64,000 bases of DNA from Verrucomicrobiia bacterium (GTDB lineage Bacteria; Verrucomicrobiota; Verrucomicrobiia; JABWAM01), in assembly GCA_020849895.1 (NCBI GenBank), contig JADZFN010000021.1, forward strand, positions 1 to 64,000. Reading direction: 5' to 3'. The notes under the pieces are model-generated. The model saw only the letters and a program-made list of their open reading frames with translations, did no database searches and was not told the origin of the DNA. Below, piece by piece: positions 13,219 through 26,736 of this stretch; the stretch's first letter is position 1, and each line of letters opens with the position of its first letter. Position numbers and translations under genes: made by a program.

Positions 13219-13337
13219 GGCGGAATGTTCGTTTCTGCTCGATTTTGTGTAAAATAAACAAGCGAAGGCGTCAAGCCGGATCCGGTTGGGGAGGATCGCT
13301 CCTCCGTCGGAGAGGCGAAGGAGGCTTGGCGGGGGTG

Positions 13338-14966
13338 TTATCTCGAAGCCGTTGCTTGAGGCGCCAGGGCCTCGCGGCGGGCGCGGGCGTGGGCGACCCG
13401 CTCGGCGGGCGTGCGGAAAAGGAGGGCCACCCCGAGGGTGGTCAGCGTGCCGAACATGATCCGCCACGGGAATTCGATGGTCGGCAGCCATTCGGGACGG
13501 GCAGGGCGCGCGCCGCCGGCGAGGACGAAAAGATCGCCCGGAAGATCGGCGAGTCCGGCGACGACCAGCAGCCCGCAGGCCATCGCGAGGAGGTTGCCGC
13601 GCTCGCTGCCGCGCGAACGGGTGAGCATCCCGACGAGGAAAACCCCGAGCAGCGAGCCGTAGGTGTAACCGAAGATGCCGAGCACGATCGGGATGATGCG
13701 CGAGCCGGGGATGACGATCACCGCCCAGGCCGTGGCGATCCCGATGGCGACGAGGAGCGCGGCGAAGCCCACGGTGCTCCAGCGCACGGCGCGCACCGCG
13801 CGGGCGTCGTCGGTGCCGGGGCGGAGGAACCAATCCTTGACGAAGCTCGTGGCGAGCGCGTTGAGGGCGGTGCTGAGCGATCCCATCGCCGTGGCGAGGA
13901 TGCCGGCCACGAGGAGTCCGCGCGCGCCGGGCGGGATTTCGTGGAGAATGAACCATGCGAAGACGTGCGGGTTTTTCGCGGGAAGGCGCGGGTCAGGGTT
14001 CGTCTGATAAAAGACCCAGAGCAGGACGCCGATGAGGAGAAATGCGAAGACGATCGGGAGATCGGCGAGGCCGGAGAGGACGAGGGCGAGGCGGCTGCGT
14101 CGGTGGTTTTTCGCGGTGAGCATGCGCTGGACCATGTCCTGATCGGTGCCGTGGGTCGCCATGGTGATGAAGGTCGAGCCGAAGACCGCCGCCCAGATCG
14201 TGTATTCGCTTTCGAGGACGCCCTTTACGCTCGCCCAAAGCCCGCCCGCATCCCTGCCGACGTCGAGAAAGGCGAGGTCGCCGGGGCGTTGGAGCAGCCG
14301 CATCGCGCCATCCCAGCCTCCGGGGATGCGGGAGAGCAGCACGCCGAGGGCGGTGCCCATGGCGCCCAGCATGACGCACGCCTGGATGAGGTCGGTCCAG
14401 ACCACGGCCTTGATCCCACCGGCGGCGGTGTAGGCGGCGGTGAGCGCCGTGATGCCGACGAGCGCGACGGCGTAGATGGCGAGCTCCTGGCCGGGCGCGG
14501 GGCGGGCGCCGGTTGCGGATTCGAAGGCGAGGACGAGGATGACGGCGGCGACGTAGAGGCGGGTGCCGCTGGCGAGCGCGCGGGTGGCGAGAAAGACGGC
14601 GGAAGCGGTGTTGCGCGTGGTCGGGCCGAAGCGGATTTCGAGGAACTCGTAGATCGAGACGACGCGGAAGTCGTAGTAGGGCTTGATGAACACGAAACCG
14701 ACGATCACGCGGGCGAGGACGGTTCCGAGGGCGAGCTGAGCGTAGGTGAAGTTGCGAAGCGCGTAGCCTTCGCCGGGCGCGCCGAGGAAGGTCGCGGCGC
14801 TGATCTCGGCGGCAAGGATCGAGGCGAGAACGGCCCACCACGGGATGCGGCGGTCGCCGACGGCGAAACCCTCGAGGGTGCGGTCGCGGCGGCCAAGAGT
14901 CAGCCCGATGGCGAGGATCGCGCCGACGTAGGCGGCGACCACCGCCGCATCGAGGAGAAAAGGCAT
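13338..14966 (-). CDS. Sodium:solute symporter (SSS family)
   Basis: A 542-residue polytopic membrane protein with about 13 hydrophobic segments. The N-terminus (AYVGAILAIGLTLGRRDRTLEGF..GDRRIPWWAVLASILAAE) and the block FLGAPGEGYA match SSS transporters, which move sugars, sugar acids, amino acids or organic acids together with sodium across the inner membrane. It starts three bases after the stop of the UxaC-like gene (same strand, order isomerase-symporter-regulator), so an operon is likely. The substrate may be that of the UxaC-like enzyme. Confidence 0.88.
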   Translation of the reverse strand: MPFLLDAAVVAAYVGAILAIGLTLGRRDRTLEGFAVGDRRIPWWAVLASILAAEISAATFLGAPGEGYALRNFTYAQLALGTVLARVIVGFVFIKPYYDFRVVSIYEFLEIRFGPTTRNTASAVFLATRALASGTRLYVAAVILVLAFESATGARPAPGQELAIYAVALVGITALTAAYTAAGGIKAVVWTDLIQACVMLGAMGTALGVLLSRIPGGWDGAMRLLQRPGDLAFLDVGRDAGGLWASVKGVLESEYTIWAAVFGSTFITMATHGTDQDMVQRMLTAKNHRRSRLALVLSGLADLPIVFAFLLIGVLLWVFYQTNPDPRLPAKNPHVFAWFILHEIPPGARGLLVAGILATAMGSLSTALNALATSFVKDWFLRPGTDDARAVRAVRWSTVGFAALLVAIGIATAWAVIVIPGSRIIPIVLGIFGYTYGSLLGVFLVGMLTRSRGSERGNLLAMACGLLVVAGLADLPGDLFVLAGGARPARPEWLPTIEFPWRIMFGTLTTLGVALLFRTPAERVAHARARREALAPQATASR

Positions 14967-14969
14967 CGG

Positions 14970-16256
14970 CTATTCGAGGAACCGGCGGAACGCGCCGCCG
15001 AAGAGATCTCGCACATCGCGGCGGAGGTCATCCTCGGTCACCGCCCAGCCCGTGCGGGCGAGATCGGCGTATTTATCCGTAAGCACATCCGTAAGAATGG
15101 CGCGGAAGTGACGCCACTTGTAGAGGAGCTGATCGAGCACGCGTGCGTCGGAATGTTGCGGAGTGACGCTGAGGCCGAGGAGTTCGAATCGCTCGCGCGT
15201 CATCTCCTCGATGATGCTGGGGTTGTTGAGGAACCACCAGCAGCCGAAGACGTGCAGGTTGGCGAACTTCCGGGCGACGATGCAGATCTCGTGCTGGTTT
15301 TCGCGGGAGAGCATCGTGACGAGGAACTTGTTGTCCGGATAGGCGGCGCAAAGGCGCTCCACGACACCGGGATCGGCGCGGCCGACGGAATCGCCCGCGA
15401 GGCGCAGGGACGGGTTCACGAGCTTTTTCACGCCGATCATCATCGCGAAGGGGAGGTTGTGCTCCCGGCATTCGGGGAGGATGGCCTCGACGAGGAGATG
15501 ATTGCGGAGGGTGTCGGATCCGGGCGTCTTGAGGTCGGGGAAGGCGAAGGTCGGCGGAAGCGAAACGGCGAGGTAGAGCGGCTTCATCCGCATGATCCAT
15601 TCGTGCAAGAAGCGGCGAGTCTCATCGAGGGTGCGCCGGCTGCAGTCGAGACCGACGTCGAACCCCCATTCGCGGAGGCGGGGTACGGCCTTCTCCCAGG
15701 TCATCAGGATGTCGTCGAGGCGCAGGGCGGCCTCGAAGCGCGCGTCGCGCGTCCCACCGCGCAGCCAGACCGGACGCTCCAGGTCGTCGAACGGATTGTT
15801 CGTCATGACGAGGCGCTCGACACCGGAGATTTCGAGCACTTTGTCGAGGTAGCGGTCGAGCGTCCACTTTGAGAAATGGGCGCGGAGGGCGGCGAGGTCG
15901 CGTTTCCGGACATCGAGGCCGAGGGCGTGCAGGCAGGTGAGCACGCCACGGCAGCTTTCCGAGATCGGGGAGTGTTCGAGAAAGAGGTGTTTCCAGAGGA
16001 GGTCGGCCTGTTCGGTTTTCGACATGGCCCAGAACTTTTCGGGCGGGAGGCGGTGGTGGCGGAAGCCCTCGGCGACGAGGTAATGGTAGACGAGGAGCTC
16101 GTCAATGCCCCAAAGGAGCAGTGGGCCGAACGACGGGGTGTAGAGGTGCGTGTGGATGTCGTCAATCGGCGCGCGCGCGACGAGATCACGGACGGCAAGG
16201 GGGATTTTCTCCGGCGCAAGGGCGCGGGTTTTCGGGGCGGAACGGAGGACGGGCAT
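14970..16256 (-). CDS. UxaC-like (glucuronate isomerase family) metal-dependent enzyme
   Basis: A 428-residue protein of the amidohydrolase superfamily, closest in pattern to glucuronate/galacturonate isomerase-type proteins. H35-x-H37 in IDDIHTHLYTP gives the first metal ligands; the family blocks WALLxY-like (LLWGIDELLVYHYL), KFLVTMLSRENQHE and FGCWWFLNNP are present. UxaC proper is about 470 residues. I chose ATG at 16256, which follows the usual start; the longer frame adds unrelated sequence. It is first in a minus-strand series with the symporter, regulator and aminotransferase, which suggests sugar-acid use. Whether uronates are the substrate is not certain. Confidence 0.75.
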   Translation of the reverse strand: MPVLRSAPKTRALAPEKIPLAVRDLVARAPIDDIHTHLYTPSFGPLLLWGIDELLVYHYLVAEGFRHHRLPPEKFWAMSKTEQADLLWKHLFLEHSPISESCRGVLTCLHALGLDVRKRDLAALRAHFSKWTLDRYLDKVLEISGVERLVMTNNPFDDLERPVWLRGGTRDARFEAALRLDDILMTWEKAVPRLREWGFDVGLDCSRRTLDETRRFLHEWIMRMKPLYLAVSLPPTFAFPDLKTPGSDTLRNHLLVEAILPECREHNLPFAMMIGVKKLVNPSLRLAGDSVGRADPGVVERLCAAYPDNKFLVTMLSRENQHEICIVARKFANLHVFGCWWFLNNPSIIEEMTRERFELLGLSVTPQHSDARVLDQLLYKWRHFRAILTDVLTDKYADLARTGWAVTEDDLRRDVRDLFGGAFRRFLE

Positions 16257-16570
16257 GGGCGCAACGTGCCAGAGCGGAGGAGAGGATTCAAGATCGAGGC
16301 GTGAGAATTTCCCTTCGGCGCGGCGGCGGCCGTACGGCGAGGAATGCGGCATCGAATCGCGTTTTACAGTCCGCTTTCGGAAGACGGGATCCCGAAGGCG
16401 TTCGGAGACGCACCGTCTCCCTTCCGACTCGCGCGCCGAGGAAGCGCCCCCTTTCACAAATGCCTACAAGAGATTCTCTAATGGATTCGAGGGGATTCTT
16501 TCTTGCGCGCTTCTAGGCTTGCCAAGGCGCGCGCCCGCTTCTAAATTCCTAATTCAAAAGGAGTTCGGCC
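16257..16570. other. Divergent intergenic region between the UxaC-like gene and the pilus-like locus
   Basis: A 314-base region that must hold promoters for both directions. On the plus-strand side a promoter-like pair is visible at 16519-16547 and a clear ribosome binding site precedes the first pilus gene. I see no RNA gene or repeat in the rest. Confidence 0.5.
16519..16547 (+). promoter_or_regulatory. Candidate sigma-70-like promoter of the pilus-like locus
   Basis: TTGCCA (16519-16524) and TAAATT (16542-16547) are separated by 17 bases, close to the -35/-10 consensus. The first ATG follows 23 bases downstream with AAAGGAG as ribosome binding site at about 16557-16563. Confidence 0.4.
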
Positions 16571-17188
16571 ATGTTCACCCGCTTCGTTTTCCTCGTGTGT
16601 TTTTTGACCGCCGGAACCTGGGCTTGGGCTCAGCAGCCCGTGGTCCAGATTAAAAAGATTGAGACCACGTTGGAAGCCGCACCCCGATATCAGGCGTCCG
16701 TCCAGATTCAAAAACCGCAGCCCGACTCGAACCGAAAATGGCTCATGGTGGAGGCGGAGCTCGAGACGCTGCCGGACTGGTGCGAGGAGCTCCAGGTCCG
16801 CTTCTACGTGGTCGCCAACTACGGGTCTCAGGCCCGCGAGCGTTCCCCCGACGGATTCGACATCCTTTCGGCGAACGTCGCGGTGGTGAACGTGCCCAAA
16901 GGACGGAAGAACGTCGTCCCCGTCTTCATGGATGCAAATACGGTCCGAAAATACGGGGCGATCAGCAAGGATCAGTTCGTGCCTCAGGTGGCGGTGATGG
17001 TCTATTACAGGGGAGTGCTTCAAGATACGCAGTGGATGACCAACGCCCGAAAGGGAGAACGCTTCTGGGAGCAGAAGCAGCCGATCGGCGGGGTGCTGCT
17101 GAATCTGTTGCAGTCGCCGTGGTGGCCCGCATTCAGCGAATACTACGAACAGGTGAAGCCGATGGGGGGCGGCGTCGCGGCGCCCTGA
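16571..17188 (+). CDS. Amuc_1102-like secreted protein of the pilus-like locus
   Basis: A 205-residue protein with a signal peptide (MFTRFVFLVCFLTAGTWAWA, cleavage near 20/21). The mature part is beta-rich (VQIQKPQPDSNRKWLMVEAELETLPDW, VAVMVYYRGVLQDTQW) and fits the small periplasmic beta-sandwich protein that accompanies the PilM-like gene in Akkermansia. A good ribosome binding site (AAAGGAG) precedes the ATG. It is the first of seven plus-strand genes. The assignment rests on gene order, size and fold pattern; its exact role in pilus-like assembly is unknown. Confidence 0.7.
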   Translation: MFTRFVFLVCFLTAGTWAWAQQPVVQIKKIETTLEAAPRYQASVQIQKPQPDSNRKWLMVEAELETLPDWCEELQVRFYVVANYGSQARERSPDGFDILSANVAVVNVPKGRKNVVPVFMDANTVRKYGAISKDQFVPQVAVMVYYRGVLQDTQWMTNARKGERFWEQKQPIGGVLLNLLQSPWWPAFSEYYEQVKPMGGGVAAP

Positions 17189-17225
17189 TTCGGCGCCCGA
17201 CGCCTTTTTTGCGCATCCTTTCCCG

Positions 17226-19016
17226 ATGGCCCTCCGGCGATTTCTCACGCTCGACATCGGCGCGAGCACTCTGAAGCTCGGAGAGTTCGTCTCCTCGTCG
17301 CCGGGCGACCTGCGCCTGGTGCATTTCGGGCGGGCGGAAATTCAGGCGGATCCGGTGGCGGATGCGGACCGCGGGCCTCAGATCACCGCCGAACTGAAGC
17401 AGATGCTCGGCGGCGGGGCGTTCAAGGAGCGGCGGGTGGCGGTCTCGGTTTCCAGCCAGGTGGTGCTCACGCGCTTCATGAAACTGCCGGCCGCAGATGA
17501 AGCGAAGATCCGTCAGATGGTGCGCTATGAGGCGGCGCAGAACGTGCCTTTTCCGATCGAGGAGGTGGTCTGGGATTATCAGGCGGCGGGCCGCGCGGAG
17601 CAGTCCGACCTCGAAATCGTCCTCGTGGCGATCAAGAGCGATCTTATCGAAGGGGTGAACCGTTGCGTGGAGGACGCAGGCCTGATGGTCGAGGTGGTGG
17701 ACGTCGCACCGCTGGCGATCTACAACGCCGCCCGTTTCAACTACACCTTTGGCGAAGAGAGCGAGGATCGCTGCACGCTGATGCTCGACATCGGCGCGCG
17801 GACGACCAATCTGATTTTCATCGAGCCGGGCAAGTTCTATATGCGCAGCATCCCGATCGCGGGCAACACGATCACCCAGAGCGTGGCGCAGGAGTTCGAG
17901 GTGCCGTTTGCGGAAGCCGAAGACCTCAAGAGGCGTCAGGGGTTCGTGGGGCTCGGCGGCGCGTATGAGGACCCGGAACTCGAATCCTCGGCGCGCCTGA
18001 GCAAGATCATCCGCAATGTGATGACGCGCCTCCACGCGGAGGTGGCGCGCTCGATCAACTTCTACAAGTCGCAACAGGGCGGGCATTCACCCTCCGCGCT
18101 GCTCCTGTGCGGGGGCGCCTCGATCACGCCTTACACGGATCACTTCTTCCGCGAGAAGATGGAGGTCGAAGTCGCGTACTTCAACCCCTTCAAGAATGTC
18201 CCCTTCGAAGTTCCCGCGGGAGAGCTCGAGAAGGCGGCTCACTCGCTGGGCGAGGTGGTCGGACTCGGCCTGCGCCTCGCGACGGAGTCCCCCGTCGAGA
18301 TCAACCTGATCCCGCCCACGGTCACGCGTCGCCGCCTGTTCGGCAAGAAGGTCCCGTACTTCGCGGTCGCCATGCTCGGGGCGATTTGCATGGTGCTCGG
18401 CTGGTGGGTCTACCTACAGAAAGTGACGCGGATCCTCGAAGGCTATACGGCGGAGGTTCGCAAGGAAGCCGATCAGCGCGCGGGCATCGAAGCCGGGCTC
18501 AAGAAGGCCGAAGACTTCGTTGCACTGACGAAGGTGGATGCGGGGCAGATCCAACAGGTCGTTCGCGCCCGGTATTTCTGGATCGAGTTTTTCAGCAAGC
18601 TCAACGAGTTGACTCCGAGAGATCTCTGGATCACCCAGTTCACGCCCGAGAACAACGGGCGCGCGATCTCGGCGTCGGGCGGCGCCGCCGCGCCGACGTC
18701 CGCCGCGCCGCGCCGCGGACCTCTCCGCAGGGGGATCATGATCGAGGAAGCCATGCCCGAACCTGGCGCGCCGCCGTCGGGCGGCGACACCTCGAGTGAA
18801 AGCAAAGGGATCACCGAGTTTGAAATTCGCGGCCTCTGTCTCAACGACCGCAACAGCAGCGAGCCGCTCCATCCGGTCGTGGTGTTTCGCGACGCGCTGG
18901 CGAAGTCGGGCTACTTTGCGGACGTTAAGATCCTTGAGGCCGTCAGCCCGCAGGAGTCCGACTGGACCTTCAGCTTCCTGCTCCGGGCCAAACTCAAGAC
19001 GCCTCTTCTCTACTGA
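17226..19016 (+). CDS. PilM-like actin-fold protein fused to a PilN-like membrane part (Amuc_1101-like)
   Basis: A 596-residue protein. Residues about 1-350 are the actin-like PilM fold: LTLDIGASTLKLGEF at the start, then the PilM block MKLPAADEAKIRQMVRYEAA (about 81-100) and a second phosphate loop LMLDIGARTTNLIFIEPG (about 186-203). A single membrane segment at about 378-398 (VPYFAVAMLGAICMVLGWWV) is followed by a coiled coil and a periplasmic domain of about 180 residues, the arrangement of PilN. Ordinary PilM is about 350 residues, so this is a PilM-PilN fusion. It would link the cytoplasmic platform to the inner membrane alignment complex. Confidence 0.85.
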   Translation: MALRRFLTLDIGASTLKLGEFVSSSPGDLRLVHFGRAEIQADPVADADRGPQITAELKQMLGGGAFKERRVAVSVSSQVVLTRFMKLPAADEAKIRQMVRYEAAQNVPFPIEEVVWDYQAAGRAEQSDLEIVLVAIKSDLIEGVNRCVEDAGLMVEVVDVAPLAIYNAARFNYTFGEESEDRCTLMLDIGARTTNLIFIEPGKFYMRSIPIAGNTITQSVAQEFEVPFAEAEDLKRRQGFVGLGGAYEDPELESSARLSKIIRNVMTRLHAEVARSINFYKSQQGGHSPSALLLCGGASITPYTDHFFREKMEVEVAYFNPFKNVPFEVPAGELEKAAHSLGEVVGLGLRLATESPVEINLIPPTVTRRRLFGKKVPYFAVAMLGAICMVLGWWVYLQKVTRILEGYTAEVRKEADQRAGIEAGLKKAEDFVALTKVDAGQIQQVVRARYFWIEFFSKLNELTPRDLWITQFTPENNGRAISASGGAAAPTSAAPRRGPLRRGIMIEEAMPEPGAPPSGGDTSSESKGITEFEIRGLCLNDRNSSEPLHPVVVFRDALAKSGYFADVKILEAVSPQESDWTFSFLLRAKLKTPLLY

Positions 19017-19038
19017 CCCGACGCGACCTCGCGAAGAC

Positions 19039-20076
19039 ATGAAGTTCATCCGACAACACCCCGTCTTCACCGCCCTCCTGGCGGGGTTTCTTCTTCTTTT
19101 CGGAGGGAGCCTCGCGCTCCTCTTGAAGACGATGCGGATCAAGGCGGCCGTGGAAGCCGAGCTCGAAGTCCAACGCGAACGTCGCGCGGCGCTCTGGGCG
19201 CGCAAACCGTTTCCGAAGCAGCCGAACGTGGAGATCGTTCAACGCAACGGGCGCGAAATGAAGGCCCTCGTGGATGGTTTCCTCGGGACCTTCCGAGGGC
19301 CGGAAATCAAAACCCCCGTGTTGGAGGAGCTTGTGGCGAAGGGGCGGATCCTGGTTGCCTGCCGCCAAATGTCCGAAGCGCTGTCCAAGGCCGAGGTGAA
19401 GCATCCCGAGAAGTTTCAGTTTGGTTTTGAGCGTTATGCGAGCTATCCCCCCAAAAAGGAATTCACTCCGCTTTTGCTCAAGCAGCTCGCCATCACCGAG
19501 GAATTGATGCGCCTGCTTGCCGAAGCCCGCATCCACGATCTCCTCGCCGTCCGCCGCGTGGAGTTCGAGGATGCCGATCCCGCCAAGCCGGCTTCCAGCT
19601 ACGATCCGAAGGCGGATCCTCTCATTTCCCAGAACGGAAAGTTCGAGTTCGTGAACCCGCCGAACTCCCTCTACTCGACGATGCCGTTCGATCTCGAATT
19701 CATTTGCGACACCGACGCTCTGAGGAAGTTTCTCGACGGCCTCTCCCGCTCGCCGCACCTCCTGATCCCCCGCATCATCACCGTGGAGAATGAGAAGAAG
19801 GAGCCAATGTCCTCCGTCGCCGCAGGCCGTGCAGCCGGCGAGAGTGGAGCGGCCTTTGCGCCGCCGCCTTCTTCGCCTGTGTCTCGTGGAGGAGCAAAAC
19901 CGCCTGTCGAGTCCGCCAAGGCGACGACGGTGGTGGATCCCAGCACGATTCGACCCGTGATGGGGGAGGAACGGATCAAGGTGGGAATCCGCCTGGACTG
20001 GCTTGATTTTCGCCATGCGGAAACGACGAAGGTCGAGGGGGGAACGCCTCGCAAGGAAAGGGGAGGCCCGCGATGA
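19039..20076 (+). CDS. Amuc_1100-like inner membrane pilus-alignment protein (PilO-like role)
   Basis: A 345-residue protein with a short cytoplasmic start, one membrane segment (about residues 9-30, TALLAGFLLLFGGSLALLL) and a periplasmic part that begins with a helix likely to form a coiled coil (KAAVEAELEVQRERRAALW). The periplasmic core has the PFDLEFICDTDALRKFLDGL block that resembles the ferredoxin-like fold of PilO and of Amuc_1100. A proline/alanine-rich linker (about 260-300) precedes the last strand. The ATG at 19039 is right after the PilM-like gene; the stop overlaps the next start by four bases (ATGA). Amuc_1100 is 317 residues, so length fits. Confidence 0.8.
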   Translation: MKFIRQHPVFTALLAGFLLLFGGSLALLLKTMRIKAAVEAELEVQRERRAALWARKPFPKQPNVEIVQRNGREMKALVDGFLGTFRGPEIKTPVLEELVAKGRILVACRQMSEALSKAEVKHPEKFQFGFERYASYPPKKEFTPLLLKQLAITEELMRLLAEARIHDLLAVRRVEFEDADPAKPASSYDPKADPLISQNGKFEFVNPPNSLYSTMPFDLEFICDTDALRKFLDGLSRSPHLLIPRIITVENEKKEPMSSVAAGRAAGESGAAFAPPPSSPVSRGGAKPPVESAKATTVVDPSTIRPVMGEERIKVGIRLDWLDFRHAETTKVEGGTPRKERGGPR

Positions 20077-21161
20077 TGCATTCCCTGAGGGCTTTCCTCG
20101 GACAGGTCTACGAGCGGCTTCTCGCCGTCGCCGTCCTGCTTTTGCTCGTCCTTTGTATGAGCTGGCTCGTGGTGCGGGTGAACAACCTCAAGACCGAGAT
20201 CAAGATGGATGTGGAAACCGCGCCGAAGGGCGCCGACGCGGTTTCCGCGGATCTGCTGGTGCTCAAGGAAGCCCGGGAACGCCTCGTCCAGCCGCCGGTT
20301 TGGGCGGAGAACAAGGACAGCCGTCTTTTCATCGCGCCACTCATGAGGGTGCTCGATCCGAACAATCCGATTCCCACCCGGACCGGTGATGTGAACTTCG
20401 AGGACCTGAAGACCTCCGAGGGGTTCACCTATCGCTGGCTCCATCAGTACGGCCTGCCGACGGATCGCCTCATCGCCAACGAGGACCCGGACCAGGATGG
20501 CTTCACCAACCGGGAGGAATGCGAGGCGGGAGCCAATCCGATGGATCCCTCGAGCCGGCCGGACGTCTCGCGCAAGCTGCGCATCGAGACGATCCTTCAG
20601 CGCCCATTCCCCTTCGTCTTCAAGGGCATCATCGAAGGTTCCACCCGCAAATTCAACGTGCAGCGCACCGACGGCACGAAGGCCCATTTCGTCGAGCTCG
20701 GCGGTGCGGTTCCGGACAAGACGTATCCCGGCTACAAGGTGATCCACTACACGGAGAAATTCGAAGACCGCCCAGACCCCAGCGTGAAGAGTCGTCCTGT
20801 CATCAAGGCGGACGTTTCAGAACTGACCTTGGAAAAGGAAAGCGAAAAGCCCGTGGTGCTCGTTCGGGATCGTCTGACCGCTTCGGGCGATCTCTCGGTA
20901 CGCCTTTATTTCATCCTTGAAGACCGCTTTTTCGTCGTGAGTCCTGGCATGGAATTTGCACTGCAAAATACTGTCTATCAGGTGGTTAGCATAAAAAGGC
21001 TTGACGATGGAACGCCCTCCGTCATAATCCGCCGCAAGGATTCTCCCGCCGAAATTTCGGTCCTTCTTCTCGATCGGAACGATCTCAAGCGCAATTTTTC
21101 AAATCCTGCCGATCCCTCTTTTTCTCCCCAGTCTCTTCCTCATCCCGCGCCACTTCCATGA
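20073..21161 (+). CDS. Amuc_1099-like pilus system membrane protein with a calcium-loop-like motif
   Basis: A 362-residue protein with one N-terminal membrane segment (about 17-36) and a periplasmic part. Residues about 137-160 contain DPDQDGFTNREECEAGANP, a D-x-D-x-D-G-x-x-x-x-E loop as in EF-hand-like, dockerin and thrombospondin-type-3 calcium sites. The C-terminal part has a PilP-like beta domain (FFVVSPGMEFALQNTVYQVV) followed by a proline-rich tail. It overlaps both neighbours by four bases, so it is translationally coupled to the Amuc_1100-like and secretin genes. A PilP-like connector between inner membrane complex and secretin is plausible. Confidence 0.75.
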   Translation: MMHSLRAFLGQVYERLLAVAVLLLLVLCMSWLVVRVNNLKTEIKMDVETAPKGADAVSADLLVLKEARERLVQPPVWAENKDSRLFIAPLMRVLDPNNPIPTRTGDVNFEDLKTSEGFTYRWLHQYGLPTDRLIANEDPDQDGFTNREECEAGANPMDPSSRPDVSRKLRIETILQRPFPFVFKGIIEGSTRKFNVQRTDGTKAHFVELGGAVPDKTYPGYKVIHYTEKFEDRPDPSVKSRPVIKADVSELTLEKESEKPVVLVRDRLTASGDLSVRLYFILEDRFFVVSPGMEFALQNTVYQVVSIKRLDDGTPSVIIRRKDSPAEISVLLLDRNDLKRNFSNPADPSFSPQSLPHPAPLP

Positions 21162-23695
21162 AACGCACCTCGAAAACCTGTTGGATCCTAGCCTCTGCCG
21201 TCCTGTTGACGGGGCTTGCGCCCTCCCGCGCGCAGGATGCCCGCGAAGCGAGCAAGGCCTCCGCACTCGAAGGCGCCAAGCTCTCGGAGATCGAACTGGT
21301 GCGACGCCAGGAGGCGCTGATTCGAGCCCAGCAATTGATCGAGCAGGCGCGCAAGCTCCAATCCGAACGCGAATACGCCGCGGCATTGGAGAAGTATGCG
21401 GACGCGAACAAGCTCGTGATCGCCGCACCGGCCAATGCCGACGAGCAGACGGCCATCGCCGAGGGGAGCCTTCGATGTCTTCTGGCTCTTTCCAAGGCTG
21501 CCTACGGCGAAAAGAAATATTCGGAAGCCATGTCTTTTGCGCAACGCGCGCATGAAGTGGATCCCGAGAATGACGACGCCCGCTCCCTGTATGAACGAGC
21601 TGCGAAAGCCGAGGAACGATCCGAGGAGAAGAAGCAGGAGACCGAACAAGCCGCGGCGGCCATTCCCAAGGAGATCTCCAATCCCGAATTCGTGGCCAAG
21701 CAGAAGCGCGTCCTCGAGCTCTATCGCGCCGCCGAGAACTACATGAAGAGCGAGCAGTTCGAGGAGGCCGAAGGTGCCCTGAAAGACATCCTCAAGATTG
21801 ACCCCTACAGCGCCACCGCCTACCACCGCCTCCGCGAAGTCCAGCACGGCAAGTTCAAGAAGCTCGAAGCGGCCCGAGGACAGACGGAAACGGAGCTGCT
21901 CGGCGACGTCCAGCAGCGGTGGCGGCTGCCCATCCGCCGCGACAAACAGACCATCCAGCTCGCCTCCAAGGACGGGGAGGGCGTGGAGACCGTCGGCAGC
22001 AAGATGGAGATCCTCCAGAAACTCAACTCGCTGGTGATCAAAAAGATCGAGTTCTCCGACACGCCGATCATGAGCGCGATCACCTATCTCATGGAGGAGA
22101 GCCGGGCCGTGGACCCGAAGCATGAAGGGGTCAACATCATTCCGACTTTCCTCAAAAGCCTCGCGCCGGTCCCGATGACGACGCCCGCGCCCGCGCCGAT
22201 GCCGGGCGTTGAAGGCGCCGCGCCCGCGCCGGGCGTCGAAGCGACGGCACCTTCCGCGGATCTCGCCGCGCTCAACCAGCCGAAGGTGAGCCTCAACATC
22301 CGCAACGTGACCCTCCTCCAGGCCGTGAAATACCTGACCGAGGTCACGGGCCTCAAGTACCGCATTGATACCGATTCGGTGAAGATTGTCAGCGCCAGCG
22401 AGGCGCTGGCCAGCAGCAGCCTCCAATCGCGCAGCTACACCGTCAAACCCACTCTTTTCAAGTCGGTCGTCGAGCGCACGGACACGGGGGGAGCCTCCAC
22501 CACGCGCGGCGCCTCGGGGGGATTCACCGGCTTGACCGGTGACACGCGCGTCACAGCCGAGACCGACGCGAAGAAGTTCCTCGAGGAGTTCGGCATTGAT
22601 TTCAAGAGCGGCGGCAGCGCCAAGTATATCGAGAGCCTCGGACTGCTCATCGTCACTCAGACCAACGAGGTCCTGGACCAGATTGACGAGATCATGCTGA
22701 AGCTCAACAAGACGGCGCCGCAGGTCACCATCGAAGCTAAATTTATTGACGTGCGCCAAAGCGACCTCGAAGAGCTTGGGTTCGAGTGGGCGTTCGCACC
22801 GGCCACCCAGTCCCAGTATACGATCGAGTCCGGCCGCGGCACCGCGCTGCCTGGCATTCCGATCGGCGGACCGTATCGCGGCTTGGGCAACCCGCTTACC
22901 GGCGGCCTCCGCCAGAGCATCTCCGCCAGCGCGCTCGACGCCTTGCTGGGAGGGGTGTCCGGCGGCACGGTGAACACGATTCTCAGCATTACCGGCGTGC
23001 TCACCAACCCCCAGCTTCAGGTGATGATTGATGCGCTGTCGCAGAAGGGGTTGACCAACCTGCTTTCCGCGCCGCGCGTGACCACCGTGAGCGGCGATTC
23101 CGCCAAGATCATGGTCACCCGTGAATTCATCTATCCCTCGACCTACACCGATCCGCAGGTGCAGGCGGGAACCTCTTCAACGACCGGCGGCACCGCCGGC
23201 GTCGGGATCACCTCGCCCAGCCCGAGCGGCTGGACGACGCGCGAGATCGGCGTGATCCTCGACGTGAAACCGAACGTCAATCCCGACGACAACCTCACGA
23301 TCAATCTGACTCTTTCTCCCGAGGTTGTGGACTTCGAAGGCTTCATTAACTACAACACCTACGCGGTGGCCAACAGCACCCAGTTCACCTTCACCATCCC
23401 GCAGCCGGTCTTCAACAAGCGCCAGATCACCACCAGCGTGATCATCTGGGACGGTCAGACCGTGGTGCTCGGCGGCTTGATCCGCGAAGACACCACCAAG
23501 ACCAACGACAAGATCCCGTTGCTCGGCGATATTCCTCTCCTCGGGCGCTTCTTCCAGTCGAAGGTGGATTCCTCGAGCAAGCGGAACCTGATCATCTTCC
23601 TGACCGCGCGGATCGTGGATCCTTCCGGCAAGCCGGTGCGCGAGTTCACCGACGCCCGAATCACCGCCGCGCCCGCCGCGACGGAAACTCCCTGA
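21158..23695 (+). CDS. Amuc_1098-like type IV pilus/type II secretin with TPR N-terminus
   Basis: An 845-residue protein with a signal peptide (cleavage near SRA-Q). Residues about 45-240 form TPR-like helical repeats (YAAALEKYADANK, YSEAMSFAQRAHEVDPEN, FEEAEGALKDILKIDPYSATAYHRL). N-domains follow, then the secretin domain from about 525 to 835: VTIEAKFIDVRQSDLEELGF, LLSAPRVTTVSGDSAKIMV, REIGVILDVKPNV and the signature VVLGGLIREDTTKTNDKIPL, then PLLGRFFQS. Two low-complexity linkers (PAPAPMPG region near 345; glycine/serine-rich near 445) separate domains. It forms the outer membrane channel. TPR-secretin fusion is typical of the verrucomicrobial system; ordinary PilQ lacks TPRs. Confidence 0.9.
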   Translation: MKRTSKTCWILASAVLLTGLAPSRAQDAREASKASALEGAKLSEIELVRRQEALIRAQQLIEQARKLQSEREYAAALEKYADANKLVIAAPANADEQTAIAEGSLRCLLALSKAAYGEKKYSEAMSFAQRAHEVDPENDDARSLYERAAKAEERSEEKKQETEQAAAAIPKEISNPEFVAKQKRVLELYRAAENYMKSEQFEEAEGALKDILKIDPYSATAYHRLREVQHGKFKKLEAARGQTETELLGDVQQRWRLPIRRDKQTIQLASKDGEGVETVGSKMEILQKLNSLVIKKIEFSDTPIMSAITYLMEESRAVDPKHEGVNIIPTFLKSLAPVPMTTPAPAPMPGVEGAAPAPGVEATAPSADLAALNQPKVSLNIRNVTLLQAVKYLTEVTGLKYRIDTDSVKIVSASEALASSSLQSRSYTVKPTLFKSVVERTDTGGASTTRGASGGFTGLTGDTRVTAETDAKKFLEEFGIDFKSGGSAKYIESLGLLIVTQTNEVLDQIDEIMLKLNKTAPQVTIEAKFIDVRQSDLEELGFEWAFAPATQSQYTIESGRGTALPGIPIGGPYRGLGNPLTGGLRQSISASALDALLGGVSGGTVNTILSITGVLTNPQLQVMIDALSQKGLTNLLSAPRVTTVSGDSAKIMVTREFIYPSTYTDPQVQAGTSSTTGGTAGVGITSPSPSGWTTREIGVILDVKPNVNPDDNLTINLTLSPEVVDFEGFINYNTYAVANSTQFTFTIPQPVFNKRQITTSVIIWDGQTVVLGGLIREDTTKTNDKIPLLGDIPLLGRFFQSKVDSSSKRNLIIFLTARIVDPSGKPVREFTDARITAAPAATETP

Positions 23696-23723
23696 TCGCT
23701 CCTCGCTTAGGAAAAGCCGCTCC

Positions 23724-24593
23724 ATGAAGAAGCATCGCCTCGTCTTCGCCTTCGGAGGGTTAGGCCTGTTCGCAAGCGTCCTGTGGGTCTCCGCCCAGAA
23801 TCCAGTGCCGCCGGGCTATGCGGACCGCGTCCGCCAGTATCGGACCCAGGCGACCGGCATGTGGGGAGGCGAGAACGTGAACAATGGCACGCCGCGCACC
23901 GTCAGCACTTTTCTGCCGCCCGAAAACGACACCGCGCCTACCGTGATTACGGTGCCGAATACGGACACGATCACAACCAATTTGGTTTCCGCCGGTTCTC
24001 CCGACGGCATCTATGTCCCTCCGGGAACCAACGTGATCGTTTCGATAAGTCATGATACGGACATCCCGATCCGGGCGATGACGGTCACTGTGGTTTTTCG
24101 TTCGGAGTTTCCGCTGAAGCCCGATGGCCCCATTCAATTGACTTTGGCCAAGGACTCGGTGACTCCGGTTCTTCTCGGCCTCACTCCTTCTGGAGAAGAT
24201 GTGAGCACGGATCAAGCGGGAGGGTATGTGGGGACGGTCACCTTCGACCCCTTGGCGTTGAAGGATATCACCCAGTACGCAGATTTTATCAAATTCGAGG
24301 CGGACGTGACAGCCACCGTCAAACTGTCCGGTGGCGCGGACTATTCCAACTTCACAACGAACCAGAACACCAAAGGGACCTGGTCGCTGAAGTTTGCTAA
24401 TCCAGCAACCTCCACCAGTTCCAACTCGTTGCATTCCTTCACGATCAATGTGACTTCGGATCCGAAGAGCATCGTGGTCGGTGGCAAGGTCTACGATCTG
24501 AGGTCTCGCAAGGTGCAGGTCGCGAATCCGAGCAAATTTAATGCCGATGGTACGGAGGTCTTTCCAATCCCGCGCTCCGCGAGCGAACGGTGA
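23724..24593 (+). CDS. Secreted protein of unknown function in the pilus-like operon
   Basis: A 289-residue protein with a signal peptide (MKKHRLVFAFGGLGLFASVL..., cleavage near VSAQN). The mature part is rich in threonine, serine, valine and aspartate and looks all-beta (VIVSISHDTDIPIRAMTVTV, HSFTINVTSDPKSIVVGG), like an adhesin or cell-surface beta-sandwich. Glycine/threonine runs (NTDTITTNLVSAGS) suggest surface exposure. It begins 28 bases after the secretin stop and its last 53 bases overlap the prepilin gene, so it belongs to the operon. I do not recognise the family. A pilus-associated or secreted substrate is possible but not shown. Confidence 0.7.
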   Translation: MKKHRLVFAFGGLGLFASVLWVSAQNPVPPGYADRVRQYRTQATGMWGGENVNNGTPRTVSTFLPPENDTAPTVITVPNTDTITTNLVSAGSPDGIYVPPGTNVIVSISHDTDIPIRAMTVTVVFRSEFPLKPDGPIQLTLAKDSVTPVLLGLTPSGEDVSTDQAGGYVGTVTFDPLALKDITQYADFIKFEADVTATVKLSGGADYSNFTTNQNTKGTWSLKFANPATSTSSNSLHSFTINVTSDPKSIVVGGKVYDLRSRKVQVANPSKFNADGTEVFPIPRSASER

Positions 24594-25092
24594 GGGCCTG
24601 ACTCTCGTCGAGGTGTTGCTCGTGGTGGCGATTCTTGGAATGCTCGCCGCCTTGGGCATCCGGGGCCTTGAGGCTTACAAGGATCGTGCGCGCATGGTCA
24701 AATGCATCAGCAATGTTCGCGCCTTGGCCAACGGCTTGAACATTTACGCGACGGATCACGAGGGGCAGCTTCCTGCGCTCACCGAGGACAACCTTTCCGT
24801 TGATTTTTCCCAAAGCTCTGGCGCGCTGGATCTTCGGTTGGTTCTCGGCCAGTACGACATGGCGTTCTGGTCCATGACTTGTCCTTCGGATCCGAGGAGG
24901 TTGAAGGATCCGAGACCGGAAAATCCGACGTATCTTTCCTATCTCTATCTCCTGCAGACGGGGGGTGACCTCGGCAAGTTCGATCAGCCGATCCAATTGG
25001 TCCGGGAGGCGGGCTACCACCACGGCCGCGTCCAACATTGGAAAGCGATCACGGGTTATAGCGACAGCCACATCGAGATTGATGCTTGGTAG
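24541..25092 (+). CDS. Type IV prepilin / pseudopilin
   Basis: A 183-residue protein with a class III signal: a basic leader (RSFQSRAPRANGEG), then LTLVEVLLVVAILGMLAALG. Prepilin peptidase would cut after the glycine at 18, leaving L+1 and the conserved E+5. The membrane/assembly helix is followed by a helix-strand head with YATDHEGQLPA, frequent in verrucomicrobial pseudopilins, and two cysteines that may form a disulfide (about 55 and 119). The gene overlaps the end of the secreted-protein gene by 53 bases, so its translation is probably coupled. It is the only pilin-like gene in the locus; assembly ATPase, platform protein and prepilin peptidase are not in the window. Confidence 0.85.
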   Translation: MPMVRRSFQSRAPRANGEGLTLVEVLLVVAILGMLAALGIRGLEAYKDRARMVKCISNVRALANGLNIYATDHEGQLPALTEDNLSVDFSQSSGALDLRLVLGQYDMAFWSMTCPSDPRRLKDPRPENPTYLSYLYLLQTGGDLGKFDQPIQLVREAGYHHGRVQHWKAITGYSDSHIEIDAW

Positions 25093-25110: not shown

Positions 25111-26736
25111 TCAGCGTGTGAACGCGCACCAAACCCTGGCCTCGTTGCGTCCGACAAAGGTCCGGCATCGGAGCGGCATCAGGTCCTGTTCCCGCGCGAT
25201 GCGGACCGCGACGCTCTCCTTGAATGCGGTGTTGTCGAGGAGCTGGAGCGTTTCCTGGAGTCCTGAACTGCTCCAGTAGCCGTCCGGCGTTAGGCGAAAA
25301 TCGTGGGTCGTGATCCAAAGCGCGCCGACCTCCGCGTCGCGCATGGCGCGCGCGCATTCTTTCGGAGGACGCGCCGCAAGCTCCGCCCAGAGCGGATCGG
25401 GGCGATGCATCGTCGCGGTCGTGAGGCGTCTCGTCCAGGCCTCCAGGAAAAAGCCGTAGGTTGGCGAGCAGGCGATGCGACGTTCCGCTGGCAGAACGTC
25501 CGCGATTTCCCGTGCGGCGGCGGCGAGGAAATGAGGGAACACCGGAGCAGGCGGGGGAAGGGCGGTGAACGCGGCGAAGAGCGCAAGGACAACCGCCCAA
25601 CCGCGCCGCGGACGGCAGAGGGAGGCGAGAAAGGGAAGCAGGAGGAGCGCGCCGGTGAGCTGGAGGAGAAAGGCAGGACGAAACACCCGCAGCGAGAGCG
25701 CCGCCAGCCCGATGGCAAGCCAGGCCAGGGATTTCGACCCTTTCCGAAGATGCCAAATGGCGAGCCCGATCCAGAGGAGATTGATTCCGTGGAAGATCGT
25801 GAAGAAAGAGACGCCAAGAGGAAGAAGGTCCCCAGAAAGCATTTGCCGTTGCCAGACCAGGTTGACTCCGCGCACAGCCAGCGCCAGATGTGCCCACGCA
25901 CGAAACAGCGGTTCGTAAAAAAGCCATGCGGCGAACACGGCGCCCGCCAGCGCGATGTCGAGCCTTCCGAACGAAACGAGGATTTTCGGCGGATGCGTGG
26001 AATTGCCGAGCGATTTTTCCTGACTTTTGTCGCCCGGGAGAACTGACGGAATCCCTCGCCCTCTCTCGAAGCGGGGCGCGAGGCGCCGCCATGCGAAACG
26101 CAATGCGATCCACAGCGCTACGCCGACGCCTTCCGGGCCGATCACCACGGCTTCCGCGAGACACGCGACGGCGACAAGGTTGGGGCGCGCGCGGCGGCCG
26201 TCCAGCCAGGGGAGAAACCCCTGCAGCGCGCCGAGCAGGACGAGCTGGCCGACTGTGAAGTGGGTGAAGGACGCCACGGAGAGCGTTGCCTGATGCGGCA
26301 GAAGCGCGAAGAGGAGTCCCGCTGAGAAACGGAGCCCGAATCCCGGCGGTCTGTTGTGGAACGCAGGGACAAACGCCTCCAGCCGCGCGGCAAGGAGAAA
26401 GGCGGATGCGGCGTTGCAACACGCGGCGAGCGCGAGGAACCAGGCCATGCCTCCTGCCGTGGAAAATCCCGCGGCAGGGGCCGCGAGCCAACGGGTGACG
26501 TCGAGAAAGGAGAGCGGTTCCCAGCCTCGTGCGACCAGCAGGTAAAACCAGAGATCCGGTCCCTGGGTGGCCAGCGCACCGTGTGCGCGAACGTAGCGCA
26601 GGTTCAGGATTCCGAAAAGGACGAGCGTCGCCGCCGCCGCCGTGACACCGGCGCCTGCGCGCACCGTCGCTTTCGGTCCGCATAAGCCTTCGTGCGAAGG
26701 AGAATCCCGGCAGGGGCGTGGTGTGCGCGAGCCCAT
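25111..26736 (-). CDS. Polytopic membrane protein with GT-C-like layout, function unknown
   Basis: A 541-residue protein with about 10-11 hydrophobic segments between residues 30 and 430 and a soluble C-terminal domain of about 110 residues (IADVLPAERRIACSPTYGFF ... GYWSSSGLQETLQLL). This order, membrane part first and an extracytoplasmic tail last, is that of GT-C glycosyltransferases (STT3/PglB or PMT type). I see no clear WWDXG motif; a D-x-W-like GPDLWFYLLVARG sits in the first loop. It converges on the prepilin gene with an 18-base gap. Glycosylation of the pilin-like proteins is a possibility suggested only by position. Confidence 0.55.
   Translation of the reverse strand: MGSRTPRPCRDSPSHEGLCGPKATVRAGAGVTAAAATLVLFGILNLRYVRAHGALATQGPDLWFYLLVARGWEPLSFLDVTRWLAAPAAGFSTAGGMAWFLALAACCNAASAFLLAARLEAFVPAFHNRPPGFGLRFSAGLLFALLPHQATLSVASFTHFTVGQLVLLGALQGFLPWLDGRRARPNLVAVACLAEAVVIGPEGVGVALWIALRFAWRRLAPRFERGRGIPSVLPGDKSQEKSLGNSTHPPKILVSFGRLDIALAGAVFAAWLFYEPLFRAWAHLALAVRGVNLVWQRQMLSGDLLPLGVSFFTIFHGINLLWIGLAIWHLRKGSKSLAWLAIGLAALSLRVFRPAFLLQLTGALLLLPFLASLCRPRRGWAVVLALFAAFTALPPPAPVFPHFLAAAAREIADVLPAERRIACSPTYGFFLEAWTRRLTTATMHRPDPLWAELAARPPKECARAMRDAEVGALWITTHDFRLTPDGYWSSSGLQETLQLLDNTAFKESVAVRIAREQDLMPLRCRTFVGRNEARVWCAFTR

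Follow-up and report, generated by a model that had tools for sequence, protein, structure and literature searches.

What does a locus of the kind that encodes Amuc_1100 in Akkermansia build, and can a pilin gene attached to it tell us? The Akkermansia locus has been described as a pilus-like cluster (PMC5332112). Under the name MUL2 it has been found with the same gene order in Akkermansiaceae; other Verrucomicrobiales often keep it too, Chthoniobacterales less so (PMC13174399). A related locus lies in the 64,000-nucleotide stretch of Verrucomicrobiia DNA analyzed here (the window), where seven closely packed plus-strand genes span positions 16571–25092, between a divergent minus-strand gene (14970–16457) and a convergent minus-strand gene (25111–26736). 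The first five, at 16571–23695, form the Amuc-type core. They are separated by 37 bp (1102/1101) and 22 bp (1101/1100) or overlap by 4 bp (1100/1099 and 1099/1098). A gap of 28 bp follows the 1098-like gene, before a sixth gene for a 289-residue protein, and the frame of the seventh, a prepilin gene, overlaps the 3′ end of the sixth by 53 bp. Promoter and terminator scans of the locus gave little above chance. Because third positions are rich in G+C, long frames also stay open on the strand opposite probable genes, for example at 13245–15872 on the plus strand; these were not counted as genes.

The preliminary description had proposed an Amuc_1102-1101-1100-1099-1098-like gene order, and NCBIfam models did match the five proteins in that order on one strand. 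The core comprises a 205-residue 1102-like (MUL2A) secreted protein with a signal peptide-like N-terminus (16571–17188; NF042424 Amuc_1102_rel, E 4.4e-9), a 596-residue 1101-like (MUL2B) protein (17226–19016; NF045709 Amuc_1101_fam, E 2.5e-150), a 345-residue 1100-like protein with an N-terminal membrane anchor (19039–20076; NF038287 Amuc_1100_fam, E 1e-37), a 362-residue 1099-like protein, also with an N-terminal membrane anchor (20073–21161; NF042425 Amuc_1099_fam, E 3.1e-23), and an 845-residue 1098-like protein (21158–23695; NF042912 Amuc_1098_fam, E 1.5e-153). A profile of the 1102 family (A5) matched the Amuc_1102 structure 7dsz with an E value of 1.2e-50. Only the 1099-like protein passed its NCBIfam equivalog cut-off (83 vs 50 bits), which makes the window locus a distant syntenic homologue and not a curated equivalog. 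The other four scored below theirs (1102, 36 vs 55; 1101, 502 vs 650; 1100, 130 vs 180; 1098, 513 vs 750 bits), as would be expected at such a distance from Akkermansia. Judged by these matches, the five core genes are related, distantly but clearly, to Amuc_1102, 1101, 1100, 1099, and 1098 in the same order.

This order was constant in 52 loci besides the window, drawn from its relatives and the phylum, some of them without detected end genes. Addition of 80 loci from named GTDB records and removal of duplicates gave 121 distinct loci, of which 69 were complete; most others lacked only an end gene, either at a contig end or through non-detection of 1102, and two had no detectable 1099. Wherever contigs were readable, none of the 121 showed a rearranged core, bearing out the expectation that the order is conserved across Verrucomicrobiota, and this recurrence places the core match far beyond chance. 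The five-gene order was also present in Chthoniobacterales, Kiritimatiellae, and Lentisphaerae records of our survey. One locus (L107) carried an extra 1099-like gene upstream of the five-gene set, and the Amuc_1098-type secretin was tandemly doubled at the locus end in nine scattered lineages (L067, L082, L087, L113, L187, L212, L225, L241, and L251).

A structural comparison of the 345-residue protein with Amuc_1100 had also been suggested, and it came out in favor of the match. The AlphaFold (AF2) model, built from an alignment with 50 relatives, had a pLDDT of 83, and its best ten Foldseek matches in the PDB were all Amuc_1100 entries (6laf, 6lad, and 6kny; E 7e-11 to 2e-9; TM normalized to target 0.71–0.84). 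Next came Pseudomonas aeruginosa PilO (2rjz; probability 1.00, E 1.2e-3), together with one chain of 3jc8, a type IVa pilus machine model (E 0.012); the AF2 model resembled PilO structures and not a GspM structure. A profile of 51 Amuc_1100 relatives matched the Amuc_1100 structures with an E value of 7.6e-62, and the commonest Pfam match among those relatives was T2SSM_b, seen weakly in 7 of 51. By sequence, the protein had no significant match to a PilO model. The locus of genome G037 served as a positive control: it encodes a protein very close to Amuc_1100 (540 bits to 6lad), and G037 is accordingly Akkermansia or close to it. On the modeled fold, the Amuc_1100 member of the locus looks like PilO, an internal machine part. 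This conflicts with its published location, as Amuc_1100 has been described as an outer-membrane protein and reported on pili (PMC5332112, PMC10688800), in the 2023 review by personal communication; the same review names 1098 as PilQ (PMC10688800). Our literature search, which covered few subscription papers, found no paper assigning Amuc_1100 to PilO, and we claim no priority.

The PilO-type fold also bears on whether this is a host-interaction locus centered on an immunomodulatory Amuc_1100 protein. Recombinant Amuc_1100 has published TLR2 activity (PMC5332112), but a fold of this type belongs to a machine part, and Amuc_1100-family matches occur, nearly always singly, in 302 of 388 Verrucomicrobiota genomes. 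Moreover, the closest named relatives are uncultured MAGs, among them one from groundwater. We therefore regard a host-interaction role as highly improbable, and a locus this widespread does not imply the host action that the preliminary description mentioned for Amuc_1100.

The remaining core proteins were compared with the other parts of a pilus base. The 1101-like protein scored 168 bits against the PilM model TIGR01175 (cut-off 133) and 136 bits against PF11104, but only 20 bits against GspL. A single membrane helix at residues ~375–398, seen by hydropathy, joins the PilM part to a PilN-like part, for which the closest conventional pilus protein of the same genome was PilN (hhalign E 0.0013 over 200 columns); the match of this part to PF05137 (E 0.014) was under the cut-off. 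In hhalign comparisons with the genome's own conventional PilN, PilO, and PilP, each core protein paired best, though weakly, with its expected partner, 1100 with PilO and 1099 with PilP. The 1099/PilP similarity was not significant, whether by Pfam matches of relatives, structure profile search, or hhalign, and the 1099 profile found no PilP or GspC structure, so that 1099 is a candidate for the PilP position whose PilP role is unproven. This protein also contains a TSP3-like, calcium-binding-like loop with the motif DPDQDGF (DPDQDGFTNREE; window 20484–20549, residues ~138–159), and TSP3_bac was matched in 21 of 52 relatives of Amuc_1099; the protein at the PilP position might thus be calcium-dependent. 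The 1098-like protein, with TPR, STN, and secretin domains, is on its domain matches certainly a secretin (PF00263, 142 bits). It scored alike on GspD and PilQ models (TIGR02515 PilQ, 141 bits, below the cut-off of 284), and its assignment as PilQ is by context.

We then looked for the rest of a pilus machine. The pilB, pilC, and pilD genes that the preliminary description recommended seeking were all found, together with pilT. PilB (646 bits) and PilT (467 bits), both above cut-off, are adjacent on contig C66, which also carries the only prepilin peptidase found, PilD; a second PilB is on C67, a second PilT-family ATPase on C22, and PilC on C26 and C45. The genome (G000, 2.8 Mb) further encodes a GspD-GspF-pseudopilin set on C36 and ~44 dispersed prepilin-type N-termini (N_methyl matches). 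Some other genomes of the phylum have hundreds of prepilin candidates. A second, conventional operon lies on the minus strand of C69 (L166; 2539–7413) and encodes PilM (390 residues), PilN (233), PilO (187), a PilP-like protein (188), and a secretin (704). Few genomes of the class have two PilM-based bases as the window's genome does, and its motor genes can therefore be tied less firmly to the window locus alone.

Across the phylum, PilT was detected in 374 of 388 genomes and PilM in 348. Of the 99 same-class genomes in the PilM listing, 95 had exactly one PilM by manual count, and in the retrieved loci it was the copy beside Amuc_1100. Genomes without detectable PilM mostly lacked Amuc_1100 too, for example those listed from families f8 and f14. 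Nine of the 14 genomes without detectable PilT also had no Amuc_1100. Among the 374 genomes with PilT, 77 had no Amuc_1100 match; in some of these the protein has probably diverged beyond the reach of the model. On the family, fold, and profile matches, the fixed order, the usually single PilM, and the motor genes, we read the five-gene core as the type IV pilus base of the phylum, of PilM-N-O-P-Q type, and not as a host-interaction system; we hold this reading to be quite likely. Besides the published location of Amuc_1100, three points count against it: the motor genes could instead serve the PilMNOP-secretin set of C69 or the GspD/F/pseudopilin set of C36; five of the 14 genomes without detectable PilT keep Amuc_1100; and the PilP position is filled by a protein without significant PilP similarity.

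As a pilus base, the core would form the envelope-spanning part of a type IVa-like pilus machine, in which 1101 would supply PilM and PilN, 1100 would supply PilO, 1099 would sit at the PilP position, and 1098 would be the PilQ secretin pore, with 1102 as a small secreted part specific to loci of this kind. We infer that this base works with the PilB and PilT of C66; together with these and with PilC and PilD, also encoded elsewhere in the genome, it may polymerize pilin fibers and retract them through the outer membrane.

The two genes behind the core were also as first described, a secreted protein followed by a prepilin. The 289-residue protein (23724–24593) has a signal peptide-like start, is lineage-restricted, and gave no Pfam, NCBIfam, or PDB match. 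The prepilin, of up to 183 residues (24541 or 24547 to 25092), has the cleavage/methylation motif GEG|LTLVEVLLVVAILGML with Glu5 and a hydrophobic helix by hydropathy. It scored over the cut-off of TIGR02532 (17.8 vs 16.3 bits) and just under that of PF07963 (20.6 vs 21.2 bits).

The top NCBIfam match of the prepilin, GspG, scored 34.6 bits against a cut-off of 88.85. This fits an alternative in which the locus encodes a machine devoted to secretion or uptake, either similar to type II secretion or for MUL2-like glycan uptake, that uses a short pseudopilus, with the prepilin as pseudopilin and the 289-residue protein as cargo. The equal scoring of the secretin by GspD and PilQ models is consistent with this, as is the reported involvement of MUL2 in mucin/glycan accumulation in Akkermansiaceae (PMC13174399). 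The 1101-like protein is, however, far closer to PilM than to GspL, the 1100 fold matches PilO and not a GspM structure, the genome has a separate GspD/F/pseudopilin set, and most loci have no prepilin. A secretion or uptake machine is therefore quite unlikely in our estimate.

Returning to the core as a pilus base, we asked whether the attached prepilin reveals its product, as had been suggested. The arrangement of secretin, secreted protein, and prepilin, with abutting or overlapping ends, recurred in two genomes of the same family, G003 (L078) and G004 (L079), and was missing in a third, G002 (L077); in G001 (L076), also of this family, the contig ends and the region is unreadable. In G008 (L089), from another family, an equivalent secreted protein and prepilin follow the secretin and are followed in turn by coaE and rho. 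The pair was thus present in three of the four readable genomes of the window's family and in one distant genome; no other sampled locus with enough flank had it, including that of the Akkermansia genome G037 (L094). With the pair missing in nearly all relatives, even within the family, and with the numerous prepilin-like N-termini and second PilMNOPQ operon of the genome, the linked pilin is no guide to the general product of the system. In L078 (8885–9634) and L079 (14418–15206 and 15502 onward), but not in the window, secreted proteins that by eye resemble FecR-type repeats directly follow the prepilin.

Similarity within the pair was uneven. The prepilins of the family were mutually best matches, with 105 bits for L078 and 100 for L079 against 67–73 bits for the best others, but the window's prepilin (P0007) was barely over background (76 vs 74 bits). 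We also considered the G008 prepilin as a specific relative of the family's prepilins, and rejected this at 63.7 bits, within background, so that the G008 pair is analogous in arrangement, with homology not demonstrated. A phylum-wide search with the prepilin profile returned mostly generic prepilins, and we drew no conclusion on orthology from it. In the PilM tree, the window's family formed one supported group and G008 stood apart on a long branch, a placement compatible with one or two origins of the pair. The 289-residue protein did not match the proprotein convertase P-domain PF01483, and its positional counterpart in L089 did so weakly (E 0.03). Treatment of the four secreted proteins as P-domain homologues was abandoned, as leave-one-out HMMs missed the left-out member each time (E up to 10), and matches of the A1 model were self-matches. 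An AlphaFold model of the 289-residue protein with its three positional counterparts had a pLDDT of 31 and no usable fold, too poor to confirm the first description of this protein as beta-rich. The secreted proteins are not demonstrably homologous; either they are unrelated, or they diverge very rapidly, as could happen to an exposed adhesin.

The pair is thus a small lineage-specific addition whose role is unproven. We tentatively propose that its products are a minor pilin specific to the lineage and a secreted partner linked to it in translation, which the machine might pass through or display, the partner perhaps as a tip or surface-binding subunit; this is plausible, though somewhat short of an even chance. 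The overlapping ends and common strand of the two genes, their equal position in G003 and G004, and the mutually best prepilins of these genomes speak for it. Alternatively, and compatibly with the core as a pilus base, the two genes could have arrived late, at a site behind the operon that tolerates newcomers, and be unconnected with the pilus base. The restricted distribution and the absence from G002 fit such arrivals, as do the non-homologous secreted proteins at the site, the near-background score of P0007, and the many dispersed prepilins. Yet the same architecture appears in genomes of two families, no promoter-like site was found on the plus strand inside the pair, and the G003 and G004 prepilins match the family's models well over background. 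Late arrival of the pair is possible but doubtful. A more specific arrangement, in which the window's family runs two machines with different fibers, an Amuc-type base with its own dedicated pilin and the fast-evolving secreted partner as an exchangeable tip adhesin beside a separate PilMNOPQ machine, seems to us unlikely.

These results assign the locus of Amuc_1100, a candidate probiotic effector, to a conserved, phylum-wide pilus base. If the pilus-base reading is true, Amuc_1100 would be part of a machine and act on the host only incidentally, and the report of its presence on pili merits direct scrutiny. A lineage whose base comes with a pilin adds one more case, of modest weight, to the question of which pilins the base uses.

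Overall, the core is a genuine, well-conserved, known machine, and the tail of two genes is lineage-specific. With Amuc_1098–1102 (MUL2) of Akkermansia muciniphila, the window locus shares the same five families, order, strand, and predicted 1100 fold, but it is distant, carries two added genes, is not beside coaE/rho, and stands in a genome with a second PilMNOPQ operon. Relative to the type IVa alignment complex PilMNOPQ of Pseudomonas and Myxococcus, it has PilM, PilN-like, PilO-like, and secretin components in the same order, whereas PilM and the PilN-like part are fused as one protein, the PilP slot holds a protein without significant PilP similarity, and an extra 1102 gene stands in front. 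Finally, the window's prepilin has the same N-terminal cleavage/methylation motif with Glu5 as type IV prepilins and GspG-like pseudopilins, but its body fits no named pilin.
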